Part shown: positions 2-20,810 of the stretch, one piece after another | How the letters are laid out: the number at the start of each line of letters is the position of its first letter | How positions within the stretch are numbered: the stretch's first letter is position 1 | DNA from: a virus | IMG/VR virus record: IMGVR_UViG_3300047668_001624 | Coordinates: 1 to 20,859 of that record | Strand: one strand, 5' to 3' | Length of the DNA: 20,859 nt | Program-made: the position numbers and the translations under genes | The notes under the pieces: model-generated | The model's database searches: none | The model's input: only the letters and a program-made list of their open reading frames with translations | What the model was told of the DNA's origin: nothing

Positions 2-904
2 GCCCAGGGCGCCATGTCGACTGCCGGCGCCAAGATCATAATGACCGGCAACCCGACCCGGTCGACTGGGTATTTCTACGACGCCTTCCACGGCGCGAAC
101 GCCGAGCGATGGCACAAAATGACGGTGAGCTGCGCGGACAGCACCCGGGTGAGCCCGTCGTTCATATCGGACATGGTCCGCCAGTACGGGGAGAATTCGA
201 ACACCGTTCGGGTTCGTTGTTTGGGAGAATTCCCAGAGGGCGACGACGACACGGTCGTGCCGCGCCATCTGGCTGAGGCTGCCACGCGACGCGACGTCGA
301 GCCGTCTGAGACTTCCCCGATAGTCTGGGGACTGGATCCGGCTCGGTTCGGTGCCGACCGCACCGCCTTAGCCAAGCGCCAGGGTAACGCGGTCACTGAG
401 ATAAGAAGTTGGTCCGGCCTTGACCTGATGGAGACGGCGGGACGCGTCAAGGCCGAGTACGACGACATGCGCTGGGATGCCCGCCCCGCGGAGATACTGA
501 TAGATTCCATTGGGTTGGGCAGTGGCATCCTGGACCGGCTGCTGGAACTGGACCTGCCGGCCCGCGGCATTAACGTCGCTGAGTCCAGCGCCATGGGCGA
601 GCGGTTTGTCCGCCTACGCGACGAGCTCTGGTGGAGCGCGCGCGAGTGGCTAGAGGAACGAAACTGCGTCCTACCGGACGACGATATCTTGGTCAACGAA
701 CTGTGTCTGCCGCGGTATTCCTACACCAGCGCCGGCAAGATCAAGGTCGAGAGCAAGGACGAGTCAAAGAAGCGCTACGGGAATAAAAGTCCTGATCTGG
801 CAGACGCGGTGGTGTTGACATTCGGGTCATCCCAGACCGCGATCACCGGCAAGGGCTACAAGTGGTCCAAGCCGATCGAATATACAGCCACGGGGATAGT
901 ATAG
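2..904 (+). CDS. terL: Terminase large subunit, C-terminal part (5' truncated by window edge)
   Basis: This is the DNA-packaging motor and nuclease; it cuts concatemeric DNA and pumps it through the portal. The frame is open to the left edge, so the methionine at 14 is probably internal. The first residues (KIIMTGNPTR) match the coupling motif at the end of the terminase ATPase domain, so the Walker A and B motifs lie outside the window. The rest is an RNase H-like nuclease. Its likely metal-binding aspartates are in GLDPARFG (Asp codon at 335), ILIDSIGLG (Asp at 503) and SPDLADAVVLTFG (Asp at 794 and 803). The order and spacing fit the Terminase_6C type of nuclease domain. The stop TAG is followed directly by the next ATG. 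The family call is strong; the packaging strategy (headful or cohesive) cannot be read from this fragment. Confidence 0.95.
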   Translation, partial: AQGAMSTAGAKIIMTGNPTRSTGYFYDAFHGANAERWHKMTVSCADSTRVSPSFISDMVRQYGENSNTVRVRCLGEFPEGDDDTVVPRHLAEAATRRDVEPSETSPIVWGLDPARFGADRTALAKRQGNAVTEIRSWSGLDLMETAGRVKAEYDDMRWDARPAEILIDSIGLGSGILDRLLELDLPARGINVAESSAMGERFVRLRDELWWSAREWLEERNCVLPDDDILVNELCLPRYSYTSAGKIKVESKDESKKRYGNKSPDLADAVVLTFGSSQTAITGKGYKWSKPIEYTATGIV

Positions 905-3900
905 ATGGCCTACGCGGACGAGTACGGCAGAGCGACGGGACTGTTGGGGCGACCGGCCCCAGGCCGCGCGCGACGCCGGAGCCGCGTGGCGGGGTTGCTT
1001 GCAGATGGGTTTGTCGGCCGACCTGAAGCGGGAACCGTCGATGAGATGGGCGGGGGCGTCGCCCCAGGACTGTCAGCAACGCGGGGTGCCGAGGGCATTT
1101 CACCAATGGACCCAAGTCAGGCGCGTGGACCCAATCTCCCCAGAATGCTAGCGGTGGGCGGGTTGATGACTGTGCCGGGCGCCGGCACGATGGACGCGGG
1201 TGGCGTGTATCCTGACCCAATAAACGAGGGCAAATATCTGCCGTCTATGCGAGCAAACTTGAACAAGGGAAAATATTTGGACGCGAGCCTTCAGGCACTG
1301 GGCCAAGCGGGTGATGCGGCCTCTGGTTTCGGCCTCCCCGGGGCCTTGGCTGGCGCGGTCCTCGGAGGTCCTAGAGCGATCCAACAGGCGCTGCGCGCTG
1401 CCCGTGGGCTTTCGCCCGTCCCTACGTTTAAGGCTGCTGACGGTGCGCCCCGAGCGGTGCAGTCACCCCCTGATGCATCCATTCCGGCATCCAGTCGTGG
1501 GGTCTTGAGATCGGACAACGAACCATTCAAATCAGTCAAAAGCGACGCCGAGGACCAAATTTCCGGCGATAATCTTTTGCGGAACCCCGATGGGACAACC
1601 GCCAGCACGCGATTGCAGAAAGCGAAGGCCAGTGACCTCCGCTGGAAAGAACAACACCCAGGCCAGGATCCTTGGGTAGAATTTACACCGGAGAACGCGG
1701 AGAATATTTCCGACGTTATGGTCACCGAGGCGTTGCAAGCGGCGAATCAGGGAGAAAACGCAGCGCAGTGGTATAGCTCCACCCTCGATGGCGCAAACCG
1801 CGTGGTCGCTAAGATGTTCCCCGAAATACTTGGCGATCCAATCTCGCGCTCGAACTTCGGCGTGATACAGGCTATCACCAGCAATGGGAAAACCGTCGAG
1901 ACCAACGCGCGTATGACGCACAAATTATATTCCGAATTTAAGCAAACCGGGCGGTTCCCAGAGTCTGTGCCGGAGGGCGGCGTCGAAGGCCGGCAGATGG
2001 AACAGGCATTCCGGCAGATGAACCAGCTGGTCGATCGTCTTGGCGGCGGCGAGGTGGGTTCCGAGAAAGCCATGCAGTTGCTCAACACCGAGTTCACGGT
2101 GGCGGAGCTCAACAAATTGATGGGGCCTTATGGGTTCCAGGTATCCGGTGAGAAGACTAATGCATTGGTAATGGGGTCTGCTATTTTTGGCCCCAAAATT
2201 GGCGCGGGATTTTATCAGAACCTGATGGGGAATTTCAATCCGCTGACAGCCGATCGTTGGTGGATGCAGACCTGGGGGCGGATCACTGGTGCGTCTCATC
2301 TGCCGATGGATGGACCTCAGAGAGCAAAACAGGGCGCGGCTCTGCTGGCTGCGCTCCGCGCTAGCAAGGACAAGAAGCCGGGCGGGTATACGCTGAAACA
2401 GCTTGAAAAAGACCCGGATAAATTGTTGGCGGTGGCTAGGACGTTCAACCGGCGATATGCGAATGGCGGTTATGAAGATAAATCGCCTGTTCACTTGGCG
2501 TCGAAGGGGTTGGCTGAAGGGCAGGACCGCGTCGCGGAGGCGCCGACAGGCGGAGCACACCGGGCATTCATGCGTGAGGCGGTCGATAAGACGCTGACTA
2601 AATTGCAAGCCGCCGGCCTTGATATTTCGCGGGCGGATCTCCAGGCGTTGCTGTGGTTTCCCGAGAAAGACATCTCTCGGGCTCACGGCATCGGGAATAA
2701 GGGCGCGGCCCCGAACGATTACAAAAAAGTCTTTTCGCAGATAGCTAGAGAGCAGGGCGTTTCAGAGGCGGCAATTAAGGAGGCCGTTGGCGGCAAAGCT
2801 CTTGCGGCCAAGGTTTCCCCGCTCCCCGATCGAAGCGCGACGATGGGGCTTCTGTCCCCTCCAGTGAGGGTCAGTGAAACGATAGAGGCGGTTCCGAGCA
2901 CGAGGGCGCGCGGTGGTGGATCTCCTGACCTTGAGGGGATGCATTTGGCGCCGGATTCCGTTAGAGCGAACTTCAGCGAAGAAGTAAGCGCCGCGCTGCG
3001 ACCTAGTGGCAGCGATGTCATGCTGGAGAGCCAAGGCATACCGAACACAGCGAGCATGGGGCAGGGAGCGTGGATTGGTCATGGCGGCGGAATAGAAAAC
3101 AACCCGTTAATGGTCGCTTCGCACAACCAGGATCTTAACGCCTCGGGGAAGATCCCCGGTAGCGCCGTGAAGGCTCATCGGGCTAGTGCCGCGTTGAAAG
3201 GTTGGGGATTAGTCCAAGACGGATCTCCCTGGCATGGCATTATGGCGGATCCAATAGGGACATCTCGTCGTTATCCAAAAGACCCCGGGGTGACATCCGG
3301 AGAAATTAACGCGGGCGTTAGAGCCAACCCTAATCTGGATGCATACCCTCTCGTGGACACTGACGAGGGTGTGAATTTGCTGGATCTGGACTTCGGAGAC
3401 GGGATAACGCCCGGTCAATACAACGCCATTGAAGGCGCCATAAACCCCACCTTGACCGGCGTTCCTTCCAGAAACATGACGCCCCCGAACAAGGGCTACA
3501 TCGACATGTCTGATGCGATCCAATCCCCACAGGGGTCTGGAGATATGACGCGGGAGATGTTCAAGGATGTTGATAAACTCTCGCCGGCGGCGCGGAAGAG
3601 GTTGGAGTCGCCAGAGGTAAGAGCGGCGATGCGGGGCGTGATGGACGCTCGGGAGCGGGCCGGCCAGTTACCGGACATCGGAGCGCCGAGCGCGGATGTT
3701 CAAAATGGGATACGGATTTTTGTAGAAGAAGGATTCGAGGGTCTTAGGAAAGCGCTAGGTAATAAAGGCTTCATTCAAGGTGTCGCAGCATTGGGCCTAA
3801 CGGGGCTTCTCGCCAAACAAATGCAGGAGAGGGGCGGTCTCCTCGCCCCTGTCCCGTCATCGCCCGCCGAGAAAGAATTATATGTAACAGTTCGGCCTGA

Positions 3901-3946
3901 AGGCGAATCCAGGCAAAAAGAAGATATCAGAATGCGCGCCAGATAA
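905..3946 (+). CDS. Large putative virion-associated protein with possible HhH-GPD (DNA glycosylase-like) domain
   Basis: This 1013-aa protein starts on the base after the terminase stop. I do not recognise it as a whole. The N-terminus is basic and Gly/Pro/Arg-rich (about residues 15-60) and is followed by a hydrophobic Gly/Ala stretch (about 140-160). Residues about 240-470 look like a folded domain that may belong to a phage domain family of unknown function (possibly DUF7178, name not checked). Within it, a helix around GVIQAITSN (319-327) is followed about 100 residues later by a GPK turn with Lys431, and Asp450 lies 19 residues after that lysine, next to two tryptophans. This order and spacing resemble the catalytic Lys and Asp of OGG1-type HhH-GPD glycosylases. 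A second compact region spans about 670-850, and one hydrophobic helix lies near 955-970. Its length, linkers and place beside terminase suggest a protein carried in the virion, but this is inference. Confidence 0.85.
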   Translation: MAYADEYGRATGLLGRPAPGRARRRSRVAGLLADGFVGRPEAGTVDEMGGGVAPGLSATRGAEGISPMDPSQARGPNLPRMLAVGGLMTVPGAGTMDAGGVYPDPINEGKYLPSMRANLNKGKYLDASLQALGQAGDAASGFGLPGALAGAVLGGPRAIQQALRAARGLSPVPTFKAADGAPRAVQSPPDASIPASSRGVLRSDNEPFKSVKSDAEDQISGDNLLRNPDGTTASTRLQKAKASDLRWKEQHPGQDPWVEFTPENAENISDVMVTEALQAANQGENAAQWYSSTLDGANRVVAKMFPEILGDPISRSNFGVIQAITSNGKTVETNARMTHKLYSEFKQTGRFPESVPEGGVEGRQMEQAFRQMNQLVDRLGGGEVGSEKAMQLLNTEFTVAELNKLMGPYGFQVSGEKTNALVMGSAIFGPKIGAGFYQNLMGNFNPLTADRWWMQTWGRITGASHLPMDGPQRAKQGAALLAALRASKDKKPGGYTLKQLEKDPDKLLAVARTFNRRYANGGYEDKSPVHLASKGLAEGQDRVAEAPTGGAHRAFMREAVDKTLTKLQAAGLDISRADLQALLWFPEKDISRAHGIGNKGAAPNDYKKVFSQIAREQGVSEAAIKEAVGGKALAAKVSPLPDRSATMGLLSPPVRVSETIEAVPSTRARGGGSPDLEGMHLAPDSVRANFSEEVSAALRPSGSDVMLESQGIPNTASMGQGAWIGHGGGIENNPLMVASHNQDLNASGKIPGSAVKAHRASAALKGWGLVQDGSPWHGIMADPIGTSRRYPKDPGVTSGEINAGVRANPNLDAYPLVDTDEGVNLLDLDFGDGITPGQYNAIEGAINPTLTGVPSRNMTPPNKGYIDMSDAIQSPQGSGDMTREMFKDVDKLSPAARKRLESPEVRAAMRGVMDARERAGQLPDIGAPSADVQNGIRIFVEEGFEGLRKALGNKGFIQGVAALGLTGLLAKQMQERGGLLAPVPSSPAEKELYVTVRPEGESRQKEDIRMRAR

Positions 3947-3966: not shown

Positions 3967-4251
3967 TTAGCGTTTCTTCCCGCCGTACATCCCCTTGATG
4001 TTCTGCCGGAGAAGGGCCTCGTTGCTGGCCTTGAGGATGTGATGGGGCGGAGGTTGCCAGCATGTGGCCCTCATCGACACCCCACAGTCTTCCCCGGTTT
4101 TGGGATGCCTGAACCGGATTGTCGCGAAGACGTTCTCGCCGGTTTCGCCGGTGGACAGTGTCTTGGTCTCAATCCTAAGGTCGGTGACCTCGGCGAAGAA
4201 CACACCAAGATCGACCTCGATGGTTCCGTTGTCGTTGATTATGTCTGCCAT
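3967..4251 (-). CDS. 94-aa protein of unknown function, the only reverse-strand gene
   Basis: This short gene runs against every other gene in the window. Three things make it credible. On the minus strand TAGGAGAG (4256-4263) lies 6 nt before the ATG, counting from AGGAG. A sigma70-like promoter lies just upstream. The translation has ordinary globular composition with a lysine-rich end (GGKKR) and GC-rich third codon positions like its neighbours. The N-terminal half reads as alternating beta-type sequence (IEVDLGVFFAEV, then ENVFATIRF), followed by a Cys/Trp/Pro patch and a helix. No family is recognised. The plus-strand frame over the same bases is rich in Pro, His and Cys and looks like a shadow. 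The gene is convergent with the 1013-aa gene and divergent from the 51-aa gene. It could be a separately expressed accessory gene (moron). Confidence 0.78.
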   Translation of the reverse strand: MADIINDNGTIEVDLGVFFAEVTDLRIETKTLSTGETGENVFATIRFRHPKTGEDCGVSMRATCWQPPPHHILKASNEALLRQNIKGMYGGKKR

Positions 4252-4478: not shown

Positions 4479-5170
4479 TGGCAACGGATCTCGGTTTTAC
4501 CCTCGGCGGGATAGATTTCATTCCGGCGCCAGCCAACGTCGACCCCAACGAGAACATCATTCGTCCGGAGCTCCAGGACGGCCCGCTGGCGATAGACGAA
4601 CTGATGAACATTCTGAAATTGTTTGCCGGCGGGAATGTGGGCGCCGGGGTTCAGAATTTATCCGGGAACCTGGATCCGAACACCACCGCGTCGCAGGTTC
4701 AGATCAGCCCCGTCATCCCGTCTGGAGTGTTTACTCCCGCTGGGGACAACGCTAACCCCGATACGAATACCCAGGCGCCACAGGCGGCGCCAGGGAAATT
4801 CAACTTGAGCCACATGTTCGAAATTCAGAGCGCCCTGGACCAGATGAACCCCGGCATGATCGATCGCATGAACGCGGGACAGATTTTCAAGAGCGCCGGC
4901 CTGGACGCGAACGGACGCCCGACGATGGATTTCAAAAAAGGCAACGCCATGAGCGCAGAGTTCATGGGACCTTCCGGCGGTCTGCTGACGACCCTCGACC
5001 ACCCCCAGACGGGTAACAGGTGGACCGTTGACCAGATGGTACGCCAAGCGGCAGCTAACATCGGCAACCTCGACTTTTCCGGGGGAGATAGCGGCGGCGA
5101 CTCTGGCGCGCAGGGCGGGGGCTCAGGCGGCGGCGGTGGCGGTGAGAATGACACGGGGGACGCTTGGTGA
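4478..5170 (+). CDS. Unknown phage protein with poly-glycine C-terminal tail
   Basis: This 230-aa protein lies directly upstream of portal and is not recognised. I chose the ATG at 4478, coupled to the preceding stop, over an in-frame ATG at 4427 that has no ribosome-binding site and would run through the 51-aa gene. The N-terminus (TLGGIDFIPAPANVD) is followed by a predicted helix (IDELMNILKLFAGG), a Pro/Asn/Thr-rich linker (about 75-105), a compact region with several Met and Asp residues (about 108-205), and a tail of Gly, Ser and Asp ending in GGGGGGENDTGDAW. The place between terminase and portal suggests a head or packaging accessory role, but the sequence does not prove it. Its TGA overlaps the portal ATG. 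Confidence 0.85.
   Translation: MATDLGFTLGGIDFIPAPANVDPNENIIRPELQDGPLAIDELMNILKLFAGGNVGAGVQNLSGNLDPNTTASQVQISPVIPSGVFTPAGDNANPDTNTQAPQAAPGKFNLSHMFEIQSALDQMNPGMIDRMNAGQIFKSAGLDANGRPTMDFKKGNAMSAEFMGPSGGLLTTLDHPQTGNRWTVDQMVRQAAANIGNLDFSGGDSGGDSGAQGGGSGGGGGGENDTGDAW
5081..5147 (+). repeat. Low-complexity Gly/Ser/Asp-coding tract
   Basis: GGC/GGT/GGG codons broken by Ser and Asp codons encode a flexible tail at the end of the 230-aa protein. Simple-sequence tracts like this are prone to length change. Confidence 0.7.
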
Positions 5171-7269
5171 TGATCGACGACGACGAGCTTTCGTCCATAG
5201 TTCAGCGCGAGGCGGAGCAAGCGCTGAACTACAGCGACGCGACGTACAGCGACGAACGAATCAAGGCGCTGGAATATTACCACGGCGAGAAATTCGGCAA
5301 CGAGGAGGTCGGCCGATCCCAGGTGGTCAGCCGGGACGTCGCCGACGTAATTGATCACATGATGCCTCAGTTGATGAGGATATTCGCGTCATCCGATTAC
5401 GTTCGTTTCGCGCCACGCGGTCCCGAGGATGTCGGCGCCGCTGATCAAGCCAGCGACCTAGCGAACTACATTCTCGACACCGAGAACCACGGCTTCACAT
5501 TGATGCACAACTGGTTCAAGGACGCGCTCCTGAACAAGGCCGGCGTCATCAAGGTTTACTGGGACGAGCGGGAGAGGGTCGAGGAGCGGACCTTCGAGGG
5601 GCTGACCGATCAGGAACTCCAGGCGCTCCTGGCCGACGACACCGTCGACATAATCAGCCAGGATATCCGAGTAATTCAAGAGGCTGAAATCGAGCCCATG
5701 ACCGAAAAGGTTGTGGCCGAGGCGGTCAACGAATTTGACGTGACCATCAAGCGCCGCATTTCCGATGGGCGAGTAAAGCTGGATCTGATCCCGCCGGAGG
5801 AATTCCTGATCGACACCCGGGCCAAAAGCCTGGAAGACGCGCGTTTTGTCGCGCATCGCACCCTGGTCACCGTCAGCGACTTGGTCGCGATGGGATACGA
5901 TCGCGACGAGGTCGAGGAGCATGCGGGCGGCGCGGACGAGCGACACGCTCAAGAGCGGCAGGGCCGCTTCCAGGACCTCGATGGAGGCCTTGAGAATGAC
6001 GCGGCGGATGACACCCTCGCCGAGGTTGTCTACACCGAGGCGTTCCTACAGGTCGACGCGGACGAGGACGGCATCGCCGAAACCATGCGGGTCTGCACTA
6101 TCGGCGAGGATTACCACGTCGTCCGGTCGGAGTATTCCGACGCGGCGCCGTTTGCTCTGCTGTCGCCAGTCCTGATGCCGCACCGCGCGGTGGGCCAGAG
6201 CATCGCCGAGAAATTGTTCGACATCCAGCTAACGAAGAGCGCGCTGCTCAGGAGCACGCTCGATAATGTGTACCTGACAAACAACTCCCGCGTCCTCGCA
6301 CTGGAGGGGGCCACCAACCTCGATGACCTGATGACCAATCGCCCTGGCGGTATCGTCCGGGTGCGTCAGATGGGCGCCGTGCAGCCGCTCACCGTGCCCC
6401 AGGTTGGGCGCGACGCGATGGCGGCGATCCAGTACATGGATCAGGTCAAGGAAGAGCGCACCGGCATCTCGAAGGCCAGCATGGGCCTGGATCCAGATGC
6501 GCTGCAAAGCGCGACCGCCACGGCTGTCGCGGCGACGGTCAGCGCCGGCCAGAGCCAAATCGAGATGATCGCGCGCGTGTTCGCGGAAACGGGGATCAAA
6601 GACCTGTTCCGACTGATCCTGCGATTGATCACGCAATACCAGGACGAGCCGAAGCTGATCCGGCTGCGCAACGAATTCGTGCCGATCGACCCACGCGGCT
6701 GGGACGCCGAGATGGACGTGACAATCAACGTCGGTCTCGGCACTGGTCAGGCGCAAGAGAAGATGCAGTTTCTGGCCCAGATCGCCGGCAAGCAGGAGCA
6801 GCTGCTCCAGACCATGGGACAGAACAATCCCATGGTGACGCTGCCGCAATATGCCGCGACGCTGGAGAAAATGATCGAGGCGGCCGGGTTCAAAGACACC
6901 GAGACGTTTGTCAATCGACCGTCTCAGGTAACGCAAATCGCTCAACAAATGGCTCAACAGGCCGCTCAGAACAAGCAGCAGCCGCAACTCGACCCGGTCG
7001 CTCAGGCGGAACTCCAGATGAAGCAGATGGAGGCCCAGGCACGGATCGAGGACAGCCGGGCAAGGCTGGAGATGGAGCGGGAGAAAATTACGGCCGAGAT
7101 GGAATTGGCGCGCGCCAAGATGGAGGCGGAGATCCAGTTGAACCGCGAGAAGGCTCTCGCACAGATTGATCTCAGGCGAGCCGAGCTCGCCGAGGAAGCG
7201 CAGCTTGAGGCCATCAAAATGAGTGCTAATCTTCCTGGGGGCCAGGGCAACATCAACATGAACAATTAA
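5170..7269 (+). CDS. Portal protein (P22-like)
   Basis: The portal is the dodecameric ring at one capsid vertex through which DNA enters and leaves, and it is the docking site for terminase and the head-tail adaptor. The protein is 699 aa, close to the about 725 aa of P22 gp1. The N-terminal part has the usual pattern (GRSQVVSRDVADVIDHMMP, about residues 47-65, then a conserved RIFAS), followed by an alpha/beta body with PPEEFLIDTRA near 214-224. From about residue 590 it is almost pure helix (Gln, Glu, Lys, Arg, Ala and Met), matching a long C-terminal barrel. The ATG at 5170 overlaps the previous stop (TGATG). In-frame TTG at 5164 and GTG at 5167 are less likely starts. The next gene starts two bases after its stop. 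Confidence 0.94.
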   Translation: MIDDDELSSIVQREAEQALNYSDATYSDERIKALEYYHGEKFGNEEVGRSQVVSRDVADVIDHMMPQLMRIFASSDYVRFAPRGPEDVGAADQASDLANYILDTENHGFTLMHNWFKDALLNKAGVIKVYWDERERVEERTFEGLTDQELQALLADDTVDIISQDIRVIQEAEIEPMTEKVVAEAVNEFDVTIKRRISDGRVKLDLIPPEEFLIDTRAKSLEDARFVAHRTLVTVSDLVAMGYDRDEVEEHAGGADERHAQERQGRFQDLDGGLENDAADDTLAEVVYTEAFLQVDADEDGIAETMRVCTIGEDYHVVRSEYSDAAPFALLSPVLMPHRAVGQSIAEKLFDIQLTKSALLRSTLDNVYLTNNSRVLALEGATNLDDLMTNRPGGIVRVRQMGAVQPLTVPQVGRDAMAAIQYMDQVKEERTGISKASMGLDPDALQSATATAVAATVSAGQSQIEMIARVFAETGIKDLFRLILRLITQYQDEPKLIRLRNEFVPIDPRGWDAEMDVTINVGLGTGQAQEKMQFLAQIAGKQEQLLQTMGQNNPMVTLPQYAATLEKMIEAAGFKDTETFVNRPSQVTQIAQQMAQQAAQNKQQPQLDPVAQAELQMKQMEAQARIEDSRARLEMEREKITAEMELARAKMEAEIQLNREKALAQIDLRRAELAEEAQLEAIKMSANLPGGQGNINMNN

Positions 7270-8549: not shown

Positions 8550-9524
8550 ATGGCTACAGCAGCAGCGGCGCTGTTTGACAGCGGCAAGGGCGGCGGCACC
8601 GCCATCGGCGAACGCGAACAGCTTTCGTCGGTAATTAATCGCATCGATCCCGTGGAGACCCCTCTCTACAGCAATGCCAAGAAAGAGGTCGTCAAAGGCG
8701 TGTTCCACGAGTGGCAGGTCCAGGATCTCGCGGCGGCGGCCGAAAATGCCGTCAACGAGGGCGCAGACGCGAACTACGCGGCGGCGACCCCGACCACGAG
8801 GCACGGCAATTATTGCCAGATCGGCCAGAAGAGCGTGTCCGTTTCTGACACCCTCGACGTGACCGACAAGGCGGGACGAGACCGTGAGGTCGCGTACCAA
8901 AAATCCTTGAAAGGCATGGAACTCCGCAAAGACATCGAGAAGTCCTTGGTGTCCGATCGCGCGCGCAGCGGCACCGATCCTCGGTATGCCGGTACGTTCT
9001 CGTCGTGGATTACCAACGCCTCGATCTCGACGGCTGGCACCACCTCGGCCTTGCCGGCTGGGACTGGGGCTGATATCCCAACCTTCGCCGGTAATGACCG
9101 CGCGCTGACCCTCGCTCTTATCGATGAGGCAATGATCGCGGCGTATAACGACGGGGGCCAGCCGGACATGCTCGTCCTCAGCCCGAGTAATAAAGTAAAT
9201 TTCTCAGACCTATCTTCGGGCTCTGTAGCGACTAATCAGATCAATTATACTGCTCCACGCGAAGCAGCTATCGTTGGTTCGGTCAGTCTTTACTTGAGTG
9301 ACTTCGGCGAGTTGTCGGTGGTTATTGACCGGGCCATGGCTAACGATCGTGCCTTCCTGATCGATAGCGATCATTACTCGATCGGCGCGCTGACCGGCCG
9401 CAATTTTAAGGTCAACACGATTGGGAAAACGGGTGACTCCACCCAATTCCAAATCGTTAACGAGTGGACCATGAAATGCACCCCCAAGGCTCACGGTGCG
9501 GTCTACGATCTGTCTGGCTCCTAA
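8550..9524 (+). CDS. Major capsid protein (SU10/DUF5309-like, HK97 fold expected)
   Basis: The main shell protein has 324 aa. Conserved features of the SU10-type family are visible. The start is followed by a segment ending in IDPVETPLYSN (about residues 31-41), then FHEWQVQDLAAA (about 52-63), a segment around NYCQI and KSVSVSDTLDV (about 88-106), and a helix (KGMELRKDIEKSL) that would be part of the HK97 spine. The C-terminus (IVNEWTMKCTPKAHG) also fits. AGGAGA lies 8 nt before the ATG. No N-terminal cleavage site is obvious. A palindrome covers its stop codon and a terminator follows, as expected for a highly expressed gene. Confidence 0.94.
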   Translation: MATAAAALFDSGKGGGTAIGEREQLSSVINRIDPVETPLYSNAKKEVVKGVFHEWQVQDLAAAAENAVNEGADANYAAATPTTRHGNYCQIGQKSVSVSDTLDVTDKAGRDREVAYQKSLKGMELRKDIEKSLVSDRARSGTDPRYAGTFSSWITNASISTAGTTSALPAGTGADIPTFAGNDRALTLALIDEAMIAAYNDGGQPDMLVLSPSNKVNFSDLSSGSVATNQINYTAPREAAIVGSVSLYLSDFGELSVVIDRAMANDRAFLIDSDHYSIGALTGRNFKVNTIGKTGDSTQFQIVNEWTMKCTPKAHGAVYDLSGS

Positions 9525-10576: not shown

Positions 10577-11331
10577 CCACAACTTGGAGCACCGTATCTG
10601 GCGCTGTCGTCCAATCGGTCGCTGACGCCGCGGCGACAAGTGCCACGGCATCGGCCACCAGCGCCACCGCAGCCGCCGCCAGCGCCACAGCCGCCTCAAG
10701 CAGCGCGACCAGTGCAGCGTCTGAAGTGGCCCTTGCGACTGCCCAGGTGGTTCTAGGAACGGCTCAGACAGCCCTCGCGACCAGTCAGGCAAGTGCCTCT
10801 GCTACCTCAGCCACTGCGAGTGCGGCCTCTCTTGCCGAGTTCAATGGCCTATATTATGGCTCAAGTGGCACGGCTCCGACCACGAGCATCGCGGTAGGCG
10901 ACATATATTTCAACAGCTCAAGTAATCAGCTCCAGGTATACAATGGATCTAGCTGGCAAGCCGGAGTAACCGACACGGCAGGACTTCAGAGTGTCGACGC
11001 TGGACTCACTAGTATTTCCAACCTAACCACCGCCGCCGACAAAATGATCTACACGACTGCCAGTGATACATACGCCGTATCTTCGCTAACTGGAGCTGCA
11101 CGAGCGCTTCTGGACGATGCTGATGCGGCAGCACAGCGCACCACGCTAGGACTCGGAACCATGGCGGTGGCAGCGACTTCCGATTATTTGGCTAAATCCG
11201 GCGGCACCATGACCGGGCAAATCGTCGCTCACTCCACCGGGGTGCAATTCTCTGACGGTACGAGCCAGACGACAGCTCCCGTGGCTGGCGTCACACTAGG
11301 CAAAGCCATCGCATTTTCACTCGTTTTCTAG
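10573..11331 (+). CDS. Tail fibre-like protein with Ala/Ser/Thr-rich stalk
   Basis: This 252-aa protein is probably trimeric. Residues about 15-90 are almost only Ala, Thr and Ser with short repeats (SATASATSAT), a typical fibre stalk. Next comes a segment with GDIYFNSSSNQLQVYNG (about 112-128), which occurs in phage fibres as a beta-structured unit. Near the end are TTLGLGTMA and AKSGGTMTG, common fibre repeats, and FSDGTSQTTA. It ends without a long receptor-binding head, so the tip may be supplied by the proteins encoded next. The ATG overlaps the adaptor stop (ATGA). The stop TAG lies inside the next ribosome-binding site. Confidence 0.82.
   Translation: MTTTWSTVSGAVVQSVADAAATSATASATSATAAAASATAASSSATSAASEVALATAQVVLGTAQTALATSQASASATSATASAASLAEFNGLYYGSSGTAPTTSIAVGDIYFNSSSNQLQVYNGSSWQAGVTDTAGLQSVDAGLTSISNLTTAADKMIYTTASDTYAVSSLTGAARALLDDADAAAQRTTLGLGTMAVAATSDYLAKSGGTMTGQIVAHSTGVQFSDGTSQTTAPVAGVTLGKAIAFSLVF
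10618..10840 (+). repeat. Low-complexity Ala/Ser/Thr-coding tract
   Basis: GCC, ACC and AGC codons repeat in short imperfect units and encode the stalk of the fibre-like protein. No exact long tandem repeat is visible. Confidence 0.65.
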
Positions 11332-15971: not shown

Positions 15972-16327
15972 TCGACCCAGAGACCTGGGCGGCGGCGAAG
16001 CCGCTTCTTGAAGAGGCGCTGGAGCACCAGGACACGCACTCGATTATAGACGTGTACCGCGCGCTAGAGGAGGGCGACGCCCAGCTTTGGTGCGCGGATA
16101 AAAGCTGCCTTGTGACGGAGATTTTGGAGCACCCCCACAAGAGGGTGGCGCGGATCTGGCTGGCAGCCGGGAACCGATTTGAACTGGTGTCCAGAATGCT
16201 GCCGGACATTGAGAATTGGGCTAGAGACCTCGGGTGCGACAGCGTCGAGGTGGTCGGTCGAAAAGGCTGGAAGAAAGTCCTGTCGGATTACACGCAGCCT
16301 CACACAATATTGGAGAAATCGTTATGA
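15968..16327 (+). CDS. GNAT-fold-like internal virion protein candidate
   Basis: This 119-aa protein has helix 1 (LLEEALEHQD), then a helix-turn into EGDAQLWCADKSCLVTEIL, strands (KRVARIWLAAGN), a long helix (IENWARDLGCDSVEV) and an ending GRKGWKKVLSDY. The last elements match the C-terminal half of GNAT-type acetyltransferases and of small phage proteins sometimes compared with T7 gp13 (internal virion protein A). The usual acetyl-CoA pyrophosphate-binding loop (Q/RxxGxG/A) is not visible, so the fold is probably structural here. It is flanked by the nozzle block and the ejection proteins. Start and stop overlap neighbours by ATGA. Confidence 0.8.
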   Translation: MIDPETWAAAKPLLEEALEHQDTHSIIDVYRALEEGDAQLWCADKSCLVTEILEHPHKRVARIWLAAGNRFELVSRMLPDIENWARDLGCDSVEVVGRKGWKKVLSDYTQPHTILEKSL

Positions 16328-17454
16328 GTAAGGGCGGTGGAAGCAAGACGGCGACCTCGACGAGTCGAGTGCTGCCGGAGTACGAGAAATTTGCTAACGA
16401 GAATTTGTCCATCGCCGGGACAATGGCTAACACCCCTCACATGGGCTACAAGGGTGAGAGGTTAAGCGATTTCTCCGACGACGAGATGGCGGCATTCGAG
16501 CGGATTCGCCAGATCAATCCGAACGCCCTGGGGCTAGGTCATGGCGTCGCGTCGCAGGTCTCACAAGCGGCCGCCCCCCTGATGAACGCGGGAAACGTCG
16601 CCGGCACCGCGCAGCAGTTGATGAACCCATACCAGCAGAATGTCGTCGACACGACGATGTCGGAATTGCAGCGACAGAATCAAATGGCGCTCAATCAGGT
16701 CGGTCAAGGCGCGGCGGCAGCCGGAGCCTTTGGCGGATCGCGGCACGGTGTCGCGCAAGGCGAGACCAATCGCGGGTTCGCCGACGCGGCCGCGAGGGCG
16801 GCCGGACAGCTTAATCAGTCCGGGTACCAGCAAGCGATGGCTGATTCCATGAACATCGGGCAGCGAAACCAGGGGGCCGCTGACGCGAACCTTAACCGGC
16901 AATTACAGGCTGCCCAGCAGATGCAGTCGTCGGGGCAAGCCAGAATGGAGCAGGACCTGGGGTACGCGGGTGCCCTGGCCGGATCGGGCGCCTCTCAGAG
17001 GGACCGCGACCAAGCGGTCAAGGACCTCAATTTGGCCGATTTTTATGAGCAGCAAAACCATCCGCTGGACATGCTCTCCCTCCGGCAGCAAGCGCTCGGG
17101 CTGACCCCGTTGGGGTCTGTCCAGAAAATCCCAGTCCAACGATCCGGGCTAAATTTTGGGTCTCTGCTCGGCGGCCTCGGATCTCTCGCGGGGGGGCTGG
17201 GGGGCACGGCCGGGCTACTGTGTTGGGTCGCGAGAGCGGTCTACGGCATACATAATCCGCGGTGGCTAATTTTTAGGCAATGGATGCTCCACGAGAGCCC
17301 CGCATGGTTCCGAGCGCTGTACCTGAAGCACGGCGAGAAATTTGCCGAGTGGATCGCCGACAAGCCGCTCCTCAAGAGGCTGATACGCGCGGCGATGGAC
17401 GTGGTGGTGGACCGCAAAATCCGGGAGAGTAACGATGTCGCTGCTGTCGCGTAA
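16324..17454 (+). CDS. Internal virion / DNA ejection protein
   Basis: This 376-aa protein is the first of three likely ejection proteins. I chose the ATG at 16324 (GGAGA 7-8 nt upstream, ATGA overlap) over an in-frame ATG at 16234 inside the previous gene. Residues about 100-145 contain MNPYQQNVVDTTMSELQRQ and GAFGGSRHGVA, a block I know from many podophage and marine-phage ejection proteins. Residues about 150-240 are helical and rich in Gln, Ala and Met. A Gly/Leu-rich stretch (about 277-297) could be membrane-active. From about 298 a separate domain begins at CWVARAVYG and continues with FRQWMLHESPAWFRALY and two basic helices. The protein probably leaves the head before DNA. Confidence 0.86.
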   Translation: MSKGGGSKTATSTSRVLPEYEKFANENLSIAGTMANTPHMGYKGERLSDFSDDEMAAFERIRQINPNALGLGHGVASQVSQAAAPLMNAGNVAGTAQQLMNPYQQNVVDTTMSELQRQNQMALNQVGQGAAAAGAFGGSRHGVAQGETNRGFADAAARAAGQLNQSGYQQAMADSMNIGQRNQGAADANLNRQLQAAQQMQSSGQARMEQDLGYAGALAGSGASQRDRDQAVKDLNLADFYEQQNHPLDMLSLRQQALGLTPLGSVQKIPVQRSGLNFGSLLGGLGSLAGGLGGTAGLLCWVARAVYGIHNPRWLIFRQWMLHESPAWFRALYLKHGEKFAEWIADKPLLKRLIRAAMDVVVDRKIRESNDVAAVA

Positions 17455-18844
17455 TAACCGAGGGCTGCTCGGGCAAGGGCCGTTGGCGGTAATGCAAGCG
17501 GCCCAGCAACGTCGCGCCGCGATGCTAAAGCCCCAGGCGCCTCGCGTGATCCCTGCCGGCACGACCGTGATACGGGAGGCCGATCCCTTGAGGGGTTTTA
17601 GCGAGGGCATGGCGAAACTGGCGACTGGCCTGTTTGGCGATCCCAAGGTGCGCGCCAACCGAGAGGCGATGTCAGCAGCTATGGCGCCAGAGGACGTCAC
17701 CAATACGGTCACCACCCCGGGCGGGTTCCGCGTTCCAGGCCCCGCTGGGGCGACCCCGGTGTACCAAGACGTGGTAGATCCGGACGACCCTAATGCGGCG
17801 AGCCTCCGACAGACCCTCAAGGACCCTGCTATGGCGCAAAGTGCCGCGGAAATGACAGGCACGAGATACGTCCCCGACAAGGAGAGTCAGGTCACGACCC
17901 AGGCTCCCGCGTCCTACAGCACCGTTGTTGCGCGGCTAAACGAGGCTGGACGCCCCGATTTGGCGCGATCTTACCTGTCTAGCAAGGCCGCCGAGGCGTC
18001 GCTCAGTTCCAACGAAAGGGACCGGTTGACGGCTGAGAGAGATCAGGAAATCCGGCGAGAGGCGTCCATTTTGTACGCGGATAACAAAACACAGGAGGCG
18101 GTCGCGAAGCTCTTGCAATTGAGCGGCAACAACGCAGTCACGCAAGCCGTCGCTCAGAGCCTCAACAAGCCGCCCAAGCAGCCCAAGCGGTACATGCAGG
18201 GGGCGCTCACGTTCGACGCAGACGGGACCCCCGTGATTAACAAAGAGGTGCTTGCTATTCAAACGAAAATGAATGAACAAAAAGCCGAGAACAAGGCCAT
18301 GACTGAAGGACAAGCGAAGGCAGCGGGGTACGCTATTAGGATGAACACGGCCATGGGGATCATCGACGAACTCGGGGATTTTGGCACCACGGCCCGAGGC
18401 GGCGCGGAGGCGGTGGCATCAGACTGGGGGCTGGGCTCTATGACGTCTGAAGATTCTCAAGTCTACCAGCAAGCGAAAGCCAATTTCATAAACGCAGTGC
18501 TGAGAAGAGAGTCAGGCGCAGTAATCAGCGACACGGAATTCGCCAAGGGCGACAGGCAATATTTTCCCAAGTTCGGGGACAAGGAACAGAACATCCGCAA
18601 CAAAGCGCAAAACCGCGCGGACACGCTGGCAGGATTGATGGTGGGAGCGGGGAAGAGTTTTAGGCTGCCGCCCCGAGTTCCGAGGTACAGGGTCGTGTCT
18701 GAGACGGGCTCACGCGCCTCCTCTACCGCCGGCGAACCCTGGAAACGAACTAAGTCATTTTCCTACGAAGATGAGGCGAAGGCGGGATTTGACGGCGTCG
18801 AGCTAGACGAGCGCGAGCTTCGAGCCCTCAACAGGAGCAACTGA
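17435..18844 (+). CDS. Internal virion protein with conserved RRESGA segment
   Basis: This 469-aa protein overlaps the previous gene by 20 bp and has GGGAG 7 nt before its ATG. The N-terminus is basic and hydrophobic (LLSRNNRGLLG, then a helix with QAAQQRRAAML). A Pro/Thr-rich linker region follows (about 80-155), then a helical repeat-like part (about 165-240). The best-conserved block is near 345-385: ANFINAVLRRESGAVISD with Glu359, then YFPKFGDKEQNI. This block occurs in large internal proteins of many short-tailed phages. It recalls a lysozyme-like helix, but I see no complete transglycosylase motif set. The C-terminus has FSYEDEAKAG. A role in ejection is inferred from position and from this block. 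Confidence 0.84.
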   Translation: MSLLSRNNRGLLGQGPLAVMQAAQQRRAAMLKPQAPRVIPAGTTVIREADPLRGFSEGMAKLATGLFGDPKVRANREAMSAAMAPEDVTNTVTTPGGFRVPGPAGATPVYQDVVDPDDPNAASLRQTLKDPAMAQSAAEMTGTRYVPDKESQVTTQAPASYSTVVARLNEAGRPDLARSYLSSKAAEASLSSNERDRLTAERDQEIRREASILYADNKTQEAVAKLLQLSGNNAVTQAVAQSLNKPPKQPKRYMQGALTFDADGTPVINKEVLAIQTKMNEQKAENKAMTEGQAKAAGYAIRMNTAMGIIDELGDFGTTARGGAEAVASDWGLGSMTSEDSQVYQQAKANFINAVLRRESGAVISDTEFAKGDRQYFPKFGDKEQNIRNKAQNRADTLAGLMVGAGKSFRLPPRVPRYRVVSETGSRASSTAGEPWKRTKSFSYEDEAKAGFDGVELDERELRALNRSN

Positions 18845-18845
18845 G

Positions 18846-20810
18846 ATGAAATTGGAAATCGAAGGTCTGGGCGTTGTCGAGATAAACATGTCTGAATCTC
18901 AATGGGCTAACCTTCCGGAAACTCAGAAAAACATGGTGGTCTCTGAACTATACGCGTCGAGATCCTCGGCGCCAGATGAGCCCCAGGGGGACGGCTACAA
19001 CACCCTATCGACCGCCGCGCGCACGCTCGGTCAAGGCGCCAGTTTCGGCTGGGGGGACGAGCTAGAGGCGGGCGTCCGGTCGCAATTTTCCGATCGCAGC
19101 TACGAGGATATCCGCGACGAACTGCGCGGCGATCTGAAGGAATTCTCCCAGGACAACCCTGGGACCGCGCTAGCGCTGGAGATAGGCGGCGGGTTTTTAG
19201 TTCCCGGCGCCGGGGTCGCTGCCGGCGCGCTGAAGGGCGCCAAGACGATCGGCGGCCGGATGGCTAGATCAGCCGGCTTAGGCATGGGATCCGGCGCGGC
19301 GTCGGGATTGGGATCCAGCAACGCATCTGACGTTGGCGGGTTAGCTGTCGACACCGGGATAGGCGCAGGAATGGGTCTCGGTCTCGGCGGGGTAATCCCC
19401 GGCGCGGCGGAACTGGCGGGCCGCGGCGTCCGACGAGTGGGGAATAGCCTAGGGATTGGCGCTGAAAATTTTGCAGATCGGAAAATGCTGCGCGCGCTCC
19501 AGCAGGGCGGAATGACACCCGAGCAAGCTGCGAGAGAGCTCCAAGCCGCGAGATCGCAGGGCGTGGAAGATTACATGCTGGCAGACACATCCAAGCAAGC
19601 GAGGGACCTGTCGTACTCCGCTCAAGCGGTGCCTAATCCAAATCAGGAGAACGTCGCCGAAAAATTAGCGGAGCGGTACGACACCCAGGCGGCGTCGATA
19701 TCCAACAAGGTTTCGGACACGCTCGGAACGAAAGCGGACACCGCTCTAAATTATATCGATGAGCTAGCAGAGTCGCAGAGCATTATGGCTCGGGCAGCGT
19801 ACCCGGAGGCCTATAAAAAGCAGCTGTCAGCTGTCCCGTTTCGCAAGTTTGTCGAGAGCGACTTTTTTAGAAAAGCCTACGAACAGGCGCGCGTGATCCA
19901 GGACGCTCGAAATATTATGGACCCCACGTCCATCAAGGTCCCCCCAATTGATGCGATTAATAACGCGCAATTCATTCCGACGGAATTACTGCACACGATC
20001 AAGCGTGGCATGGACGAGGTGGTCGAGTCGGGGCGTGACAGCATCACCAAAAAACTTGACGGTAAAAGCGAGGCTTTCAATCGTGTGAGGGTCGGGTTCA
20101 ACGACTTAATCAAAGAAATGAACCCGGACTACGCTCGCGCAAACGCACAATTCGCGGATTTCATGACGCTGCGCTCCGCAAACGAAATGGGCGAGGCGTA
20201 CCTGCGCACGCCGATAAAAGACCTCTCCCGCATGATGATGGGGTGGAAAGGGTCCAAAAGTGCTGGCGAGCTTGAGGCTTTTCGGGCGGGGCTGGTCAAC
20301 CGAATAATGGATCGGGCGTCGACGATGTCGGACGGCGCAGATTTCACCAAGGAGGTTTTTGGCAGCCCCCGAAAACGCGACATTCTAAAGCTGGCTTTCC
20401 CAAGCGGGAATGATTTTGACGAGTTTGTGACGTTTATCAAACGGCAAAAATCGATGGTGCGGACAAACCGAGCAATAAGCGGAGGATCCCAGACTGCTCC
20501 TAGGGAGGTGTCGCAAGCTGCCGCGGGGATCGACCCCGGCATGATCCTCGATGTCGCCACCAGCCCTGGGGTCGGATCGGCCACCCGGACGATGCTGCCC
20601 AGGCTCATGGGGCGGGCGTCAGGACTGTCGGAGAAGTCTGCTGACAGGATTCTTCAGGGCATGACCGAGACCGATCCTCGAAAGCAGATGGAGGTCCTGA
20701 AACGATTGCAAGCGCTCGGGAACAAACCGCCGTCGCGCGCGCTGAACCCCGATCTATATTCCACCTCGGTCGGGAATATTAGCGGCCTCCTCTCTGGATA
20801 CGATCAGTGA
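18846..20810 (+). CDS. Large internal virion protein with glycine-zipper hydrophobic region
   Basis: This 654-aa protein has AGGAG 7 nt before its ATG and starts one base after the previous stop. After a short beta-type N-terminus comes LGQGASFGWGDELEAG (about residues 60-75), a motif I know from phage internal proteins. Residues about 111-195 are Gly/Ala/Leu/Val-rich (GGGFLVPGAGVAAGALKG; AGMGLGLGGVIPGAAELAG), suited to entering a membrane. The remaining 450 residues are largely helical and charged, with several long amphipathic helices. This layout (short head, glycine zipper, long helical body) is common in proteins that build the trans-envelope channel in short-tailed phages. No enzyme motif is seen. 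Confidence 0.85.
   Translation: MKLEIEGLGVVEINMSESQWANLPETQKNMVVSELYASRSSAPDEPQGDGYNTLSTAARTLGQGASFGWGDELEAGVRSQFSDRSYEDIRDELRGDLKEFSQDNPGTALALEIGGGFLVPGAGVAAGALKGAKTIGGRMARSAGLGMGSGAASGLGSSNASDVGGLAVDTGIGAGMGLGLGGVIPGAAELAGRGVRRVGNSLGIGAENFADRKMLRALQQGGMTPEQAARELQAARSQGVEDYMLADTSKQARDLSYSAQAVPNPNQENVAEKLAERYDTQAASISNKVSDTLGTKADTALNYIDELAESQSIMARAAYPEAYKKQLSAVPFRKFVESDFFRKAYEQARVIQDARNIMDPTSIKVPPIDAINNAQFIPTELLHTIKRGMDEVVESGRDSITKKLDGKSEAFNRVRVGFNDLIKEMNPDYARANAQFADFMTLRSANEMGEAYLRTPIKDLSRMMMGWKGSKSAGELEAFRAGLVNRIMDRASTMSDGADFTKEVFGSPRKRDILKLAFPSGNDFDEFVTFIKRQKSMVRTNRAISGGSQTAPREVSQAAAGIDPGMILDVATSPGVGSATRTMLPRLMGRASGLSEKSADRILQGMTETDPRKQMEVLKRLQALGNKPPSRALNPDLYSTSVGNISGLLSGYDQ

Follow-up and report, generated by a model that had tools for sequence, protein, structure and literature searches.

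The question raised by this locus is whether a phage protein encoded beside the terminase gene carries a base-excision enzyme and, if so, how closely such an enzyme resembles OGG1. The window, that is, the whole stretch of DNA analysed here (record IMGVR_UViG_3300047668_001624, positions 1 to 20,859; a viral contig of 20,859 bases), includes a 1013-aa open reading frame (ORF) located between a partial terminase large subunit gene and an SU10-type portal gene, and scans of the whole protein against Pfam, PHROG and NCBIfam gave no match. An initial annotation had placed an OGG1-like DNA glycosylase/AP-lyase core at 1855-2300; the residues that it named do lie inside this interval, but the functional unit is longer, extending over about 1679-2788 (residues 259-628). 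The features on which the argument draws are the following.

2..904, plus strand: terminase large subunit, 3' part, the record beginning inside the gene (phrog_2, E 6e-29)
905-3946, plus strand: ORF of 1013 aa that carries the domain, frame open throughout
~1679..2788, plus strand: conserved all-helical domain, residues 259-628 (tblastn in phages, 172 family loci, hhalign to DUF7178)
1877..1888, plus strand: T325-S326-N327-G328 loop, placed like SSNNN (147-151) of human OGG1
2189..2197, plus strand: G429-P430-K431, predicted hairpin with the predicted catalytic Lys (invariance, L143 model, HhH-GPD alignment)
2252..2260, plus strand: D450-R451-W452, predicted catalytic Asp and aromatic residue at D+2 (D450 and W452 in 84/84 relatives)
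2297..2629, plus strand: variable insert between the predicted catalytic Asp and the Gln/Trp helix
2642..2665, plus strand: Q580-A581-x2-W584-x2-E587, candidate base-recognition helix, counterpart of Gln315/Phe319 of OGG1
5164..7269, plus strand: SU10-type portal protein (PF23899, E 6e-210)
8550..9524, plus strand: SU10-type major capsid protein (PF17236, E 5e-73)
16234..17454, plus strand: DNA ejection protein homologue near the right end, ORF start uncertain (phrog_4287, E 2e-17)
17435..18844, plus strand: protein with a homologue directly 5' of the domain gene in relatives L041 and L043

Elsewhere in the window, a 94-aa ORF on the minus strand (3967-4251), without a family match, separates the domain gene from the next plus-strand gene; a 21-bp tandem repeat of ~3 copies (10626-10706) lies inside an Ala/Ser/Thr-rich tail-region ORF; and a 654-aa protein at 18846-20810, which corresponds to phrog_5880 (function unknown), adjoins the ejection genes.

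The residues at the heart of the proposal are exactly where it had put them. Lys431 (codon 2195-2197), in GPK, and Asp450 (codon 2252-2254), within ADRWW, are 19 residues apart, and the GVIQAITSN segment said to precede Lys431 by about 100 residues is located at residues 319-327, ~104 upstream, with a distance of 105 residues from S326 to K431. Taken alone, the K-x18-D spacing is uninformative and not above chance, as ~2.7 such pairs are expected from the composition of the 1013-aa protein and 2 are observed; the pattern [GP][GP]K-x18-D with a W/H no more than 3 residues further on, which was chosen post hoc, occurs in 28 of 5000 shuffles. It is conservation among homologues that raises the Lys/Asp pattern above chance.

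Such homologues were found by tblastn in phage records, where three podophages match residues 259-628 with ~30% identity inside proteins of about 2800-3200 aa, and by scans of viral contigs, which gave 161 relatives first and later at least 575 stretches encoding a relative; genome contigs contributed 12 further loci, and the family amounts to 172 loci in the gene-order survey. Among the fetched loci, neither the N-terminal nor the C-terminal third of the 1013-aa protein had a relative. One candidate relative, the 'tail protein' of Pseudomonas phage Pavpe01, was rejected as a chance match (E 0.7), and a near-identical copy of the domain (95%; L088, JAQCLD010000108.1) is binned in an Acidobacteria metagenome-assembled genome, which is either a hint at the host or a binning artefact.

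Within a set of 84 non-redundant relatives (<75% identity), GPK, D450, W452, Q580, W584 and E587 are identical in all 84 sequences, as are W289, Y290, S326, G424, the whole of GPKIG (429-433), F436, N439, L440, R459, A581 and Y606; T325 is kept in 80/84. The Lys-Asp spacing is 19 in 83/84 relatives and the Gln-to-Trp spacing 4 in 84/84. Because the second viral-contig scan (the one with at least 575 stretches) used a GPKI pattern, selection explains part of the invariance of GPK, but D450, Q580 and W584 owe none of theirs to the search pattern; in the first scan, whose pattern contained neither residue, K431 and D450 were each found in 40/40 sequences. Both proposed catalytic residues are therefore invariant among homologues, and on this point the claim stands; their distance also agrees with the HhH-GPD superfamily, where an invariant catalytic Asp follows the hairpin (Lys) position by about 18-20 residues.

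Comparison with 21 OGG1 sequences (a human sequence identical to the PDB chains, to which 20 bacterial ones were added) extends the correspondence beyond these two residues, in that five OGG1 positions (K249, D268, H/W270, Q315 and F319) have invariant counterparts in the family (K431, D450, W452, Q580 and W584). In OGG1, Lys249 and Asp268 serve catalysis, Gln315 and Phe319 (Trp198 in MjaOGG2, Trp222 in AGOG) bind the base, and the His/Trp at D+2 contacts phosphate (PMC3397491, PMC9638937). K249, D268, Q315 and F319 are present in 21/21 OGG1 sequences, and D+2 is Trp in 20/21 and His in 1/21. The spacings from Ser to Lys (S148-K249 93-113 in OGG1, 93-109 in the family), from Lys to Asp (19 in 21/21 OGG1 sequences) and from Gln to Phe or Trp (4 in 21/21) are alike; that from Asp to Gln alone differs (27-47 in OGG1, 118-202 in the family), the greater length in the family being due to the insert. 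The placement of Q580/W584 on Gln315/Phe319 rests on motif and order rather than on a significant alignment, none having been obtained between the C-terminal Q/W segment alone and OGG1.

More broadly, the domain shares with OGG1, OGG2 and AGOG the Lys-Asp distance of 19, a His/Trp at D+2 and a Ser/Asn loop 93-113 residues before the Lys (PMC3397491), as well as a Gln (or Asp) followed 4 residues later by an aromatic residue on a C-terminal helix; it differs from them in its other helices before the hairpin, in its long insert, and in giving neither a significant PF00730 match nor a Foldseek match among those listed. Its resemblance to Nth, MutY and AlkA consists of the register of hairpin Lys and Asp in profile alignment, and its TSQGETVxSN segment resembles SAQATDVSVN of Nth; however, no iron-sulphur cluster cysteines were seen in the domain, and its profile scores are far under those of true members.

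The closest named relative is DUF7178 (PF23802), which is matched weakly by 21/83 family members (best E 3.2e-5), the members examined in detail scoring 21.6 and 20.8 bits, i.e. below the Pfam gathering cut-off of 27 bits. Against a DUF7178 profile built from proteins fetched from phages and viral contigs, hhalign gave the domain a probability of 96-97% (E 3e-9 to 1e-10), in a register in which the WY, the S/T-S loop, the Lys and the Asp are all aligned. As judged by these profiles, residues 259-628 appear to be a distant branch of DUF7178. Both show the same order of a WY start, an S-P-Q or T-S-N/Q loop, K, D, W/H at D+2 and Q-A-x-x-W, and all of 24 DUF7178 sequences keep the Lys, the Asp, the Gln and the Trp, with a Gln-Trp spacing that is always 4. 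Unlike the domain, DUF7178 proteins are about 200 aa long and mostly stand-alone, are devoid of the ~80-aa Asp-Gln insert of the window family (D-to-Q 41-55), and vary in K-D spacing between 17 and 34, compared with 19 in the window family. Several records of DUF7178 phage proteins were deposited as N-glycosylase/DNA lyase, N-glycosylase, glycosylase or endonuclease; these are third-party names for which the records give no basis and which presumably derive from remote-homology searches. Other names, such as 'portal protein' (Tunturi_3; L212, 1402-1998) and 'glycosyltransferase' (Jflix2; H54, OQ938594.1), are probable misannotations, and a bacterial genome (L202, G097) has a DUF7178 domain, probably within a prophage, in a 3606-aa open frame that also encodes a zincin-like HETVGH motif.

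How far the likeness to HhH-GPD glycosylases exceeds chance was assessed with profiles. Compared directly with Nth/MutY and with AlkA, the family aligned off the catalytic residues at hhalign probabilities of 0.1-0.2%, whereas Nth compared with AlkA reaches 97% and true HhH-GPD members score 97-99.9%. The comparison became informative only once the OGG1 sequences and a merged profile of 69 OGG1/Nth/MutY/AlkA sequences were brought in, with 300 column-shuffled decoys as the null. Against OGG1 alone, the window family places its Lys and Asp in the catalytic register, with 1/300 decoys as good; when the window-led alignment is compared with the merged profile, K431 falls on the catalytic Lys and D450 on the catalytic Asp (probability 14%, E 0.0019, 0/300 decoys), while a broader alignment (A3) is beaten by 1/300 decoys and DUF7178 by 2/300. 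DUF7178 also places its Lys on K249 and its Asp on D268 of human OGG1 (probability 37%, E 4e-4) and, against Nth/MutY/AlkA, scores better than every decoy (0/300 as good). Several profiles were tried, the shuffled-column null is lenient, and absolute probabilities to HhH-GPD are low (0.1-14% overall and 0.4-14% where the register is correct, reaching 37% only for DUF7178 against the one human OGG1), so that the register is taken as support rather than proof. Family members matched neither Pfam HhH-GPD (PF00730) nor, above chance, any NCBIfam glycosylase; sequence searches of the PDB with single sequences and family profiles gave nothing relevant, and no Ogg-HhH (PF22175) was found in 145 genomes.

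Predicted structures add local detail. The AlphaFold2 model of the window's own sequence, made from 37 sequences, has a pLDDT of 81.6; it is all-helical, and one of its helices passes through GPK (local pLDDT about 75), where no hairpin is formed. That of a short relative, L143, made from 83 more diverse sequences (pLDDT 95.3, pTM 0.90), contains a helix (192-196), a hairpin at GPK199 and a second helix (200-208), followed by Asp218, which N-caps helix 219-229, and by Gln346/Trp350 on helix 342-359; as modelled, this arrangement is locally that of HhH-GPD proteins. From the TSN loop to the hairpin, the helices are unlike those of Nth, and the N-terminal twisted β-sheet A-domain of OGG1 is absent, both models being nearly all-helical. 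Foldseek searches of the PDB with both models, in which no remote HhH-GPD member served as a positive control, had no HhH-GPD structure among their listed matches, and matches in BFVD are other phage polyvalent proteins. A local fit to the proposed core, at the hairpin, is seen in the more confident model and not in the weaker one.

The lack of a PDB fold among the listed matches and the low absolute profile scores would suit an unrelated all-helical enzyme, such as a nuclease or transferase, whose OGG1-like Lys, Asp, Gln and Trp arose by convergence or chance. We regard this as unlikely, in view of the decoy-controlled scores in catalytic register, the spacings that match at three intervals and the hairpin of the L143 model. 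Instead, we favour the reading, with a probability of roughly 0.6, that residues 259-628 are a divergent HhH-GPD-type DNA glycosylase/AP-lyase domain, of the DUF7178 branch, in a probably ejected polyvalent-type protein. The idea of an OGG1-like core survives in the invariance of its Lys/Asp pair and is supported, short of proof, by the link to DUF7178, by the profile register and by three further OGG1 counterparts; the domain is not OGG1, whose A-domain it lacks.

The chemistry that we infer for such an enzyme would begin with probing of the DNA by the TSN/TSQ loop, after which a flipped base would be held by Gln580 and Trp584; Asp450 would help the base to leave, and the lysine of the GPK hairpin, Lys431, would attack C1', giving a Schiff base and then a strand nick. 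A domain of glycosylase descent could also have become a non-catalytic, DNA-binding or structural HhH-like element that holds DNA inside the particle or as it is ejected. HhH proteins that have lost catalysis are known, and the family occurs in morphogenesis/ejection blocks, beside many non-catalytic LPD domains; but even very divergent members all retain the Lys, Asp, Trp, Gln, Trp and Glu, as is typical of an active site rather than of a DNA clamp, which makes this reading unlikely.

The setting of the domain in its relatives bears on where a glycosylase would act. ART-PolyVal, LPD22, LPD38 and LPD39 share one polypeptide with it in relatives, its branch forming part of ART/LPD proteins that range in length from roughly 1000 to 3700 aa or more, while in the 1013-aa protein itself Pfam recognised no other polyvalent domains. 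In relatives the domain gene lies upstream of the SU10-type portal gene or directly after a homologue of ORF 17435-18844. Very long phage proteins that likewise join such domains are known as polyvalent proteins, and those bearing ART/LPD domains are regarded as injected along with the DNA (Iyer et al. 2017, PMC5512222). Gene order and company lead us to infer that the 1013-aa protein probably resides in the virion and is ejected together with the DNA. The earlier suggestion that the activity is tied to packaging drew only on adjacency to the terminase, i.e. on gene order, and is not supported beyond that; the relatives suggest proteins of the polyvalent kind, probably ejected. An ordinary repair gene that encodes an active glycosylase outside the virion and merely happens to be in the late region would agree with the DUF7178 relatives of Gordonia, Mycobacterium and Streptomyces phages, small stand-alone proteins whose genes lie among other small ones of unknown function; the fusion of the window branch into large ART/LPD proteins within an ejection/portal block renders that explanation very improbable.

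If delivered with the genome, a glycosylase/AP lyase could be used to remove damaged bases from the incoming DNA, or to nick host or competing DNA. The at least 575 viral-contig stretches show that the domain is widespread, no Pfam model scores it above the model's cut-off, and the words 'glycosylase' and 'base excision' are absent from the text of PMC5512222, so that the domain appears to be unlisted there. Should it be active, phages would deliver to the cell, along with their DNA, an enzyme for base excision, which that catalogue of polyvalent domains does not name. Bacteria were recently found to use glycosylases, such as Brig1, against phage DNA (PMC11078745), and an active domain would link phage entry to these anti-phage enzymes. 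It is possible, as a tentative extension, that the family represents a large and so far unlisted class of base-excision/AP-lyase effectors delivered by the virion, the viral equivalent of the glycosylases that bacteria direct against phages. Such effectors might produce abasic sites or nicks in host DNA or in modified-base DNA of rival phages or plasmids, or might repair the phage's own genome at entry.

Among the loci with polyvalent-type proteins, Limnohabitans phage DC33 (L003, PQ492659.1; 39 kb), which has a giant ORF of this type, is filed as Inoviridae, and its relatives by this protein are tailed podophages.
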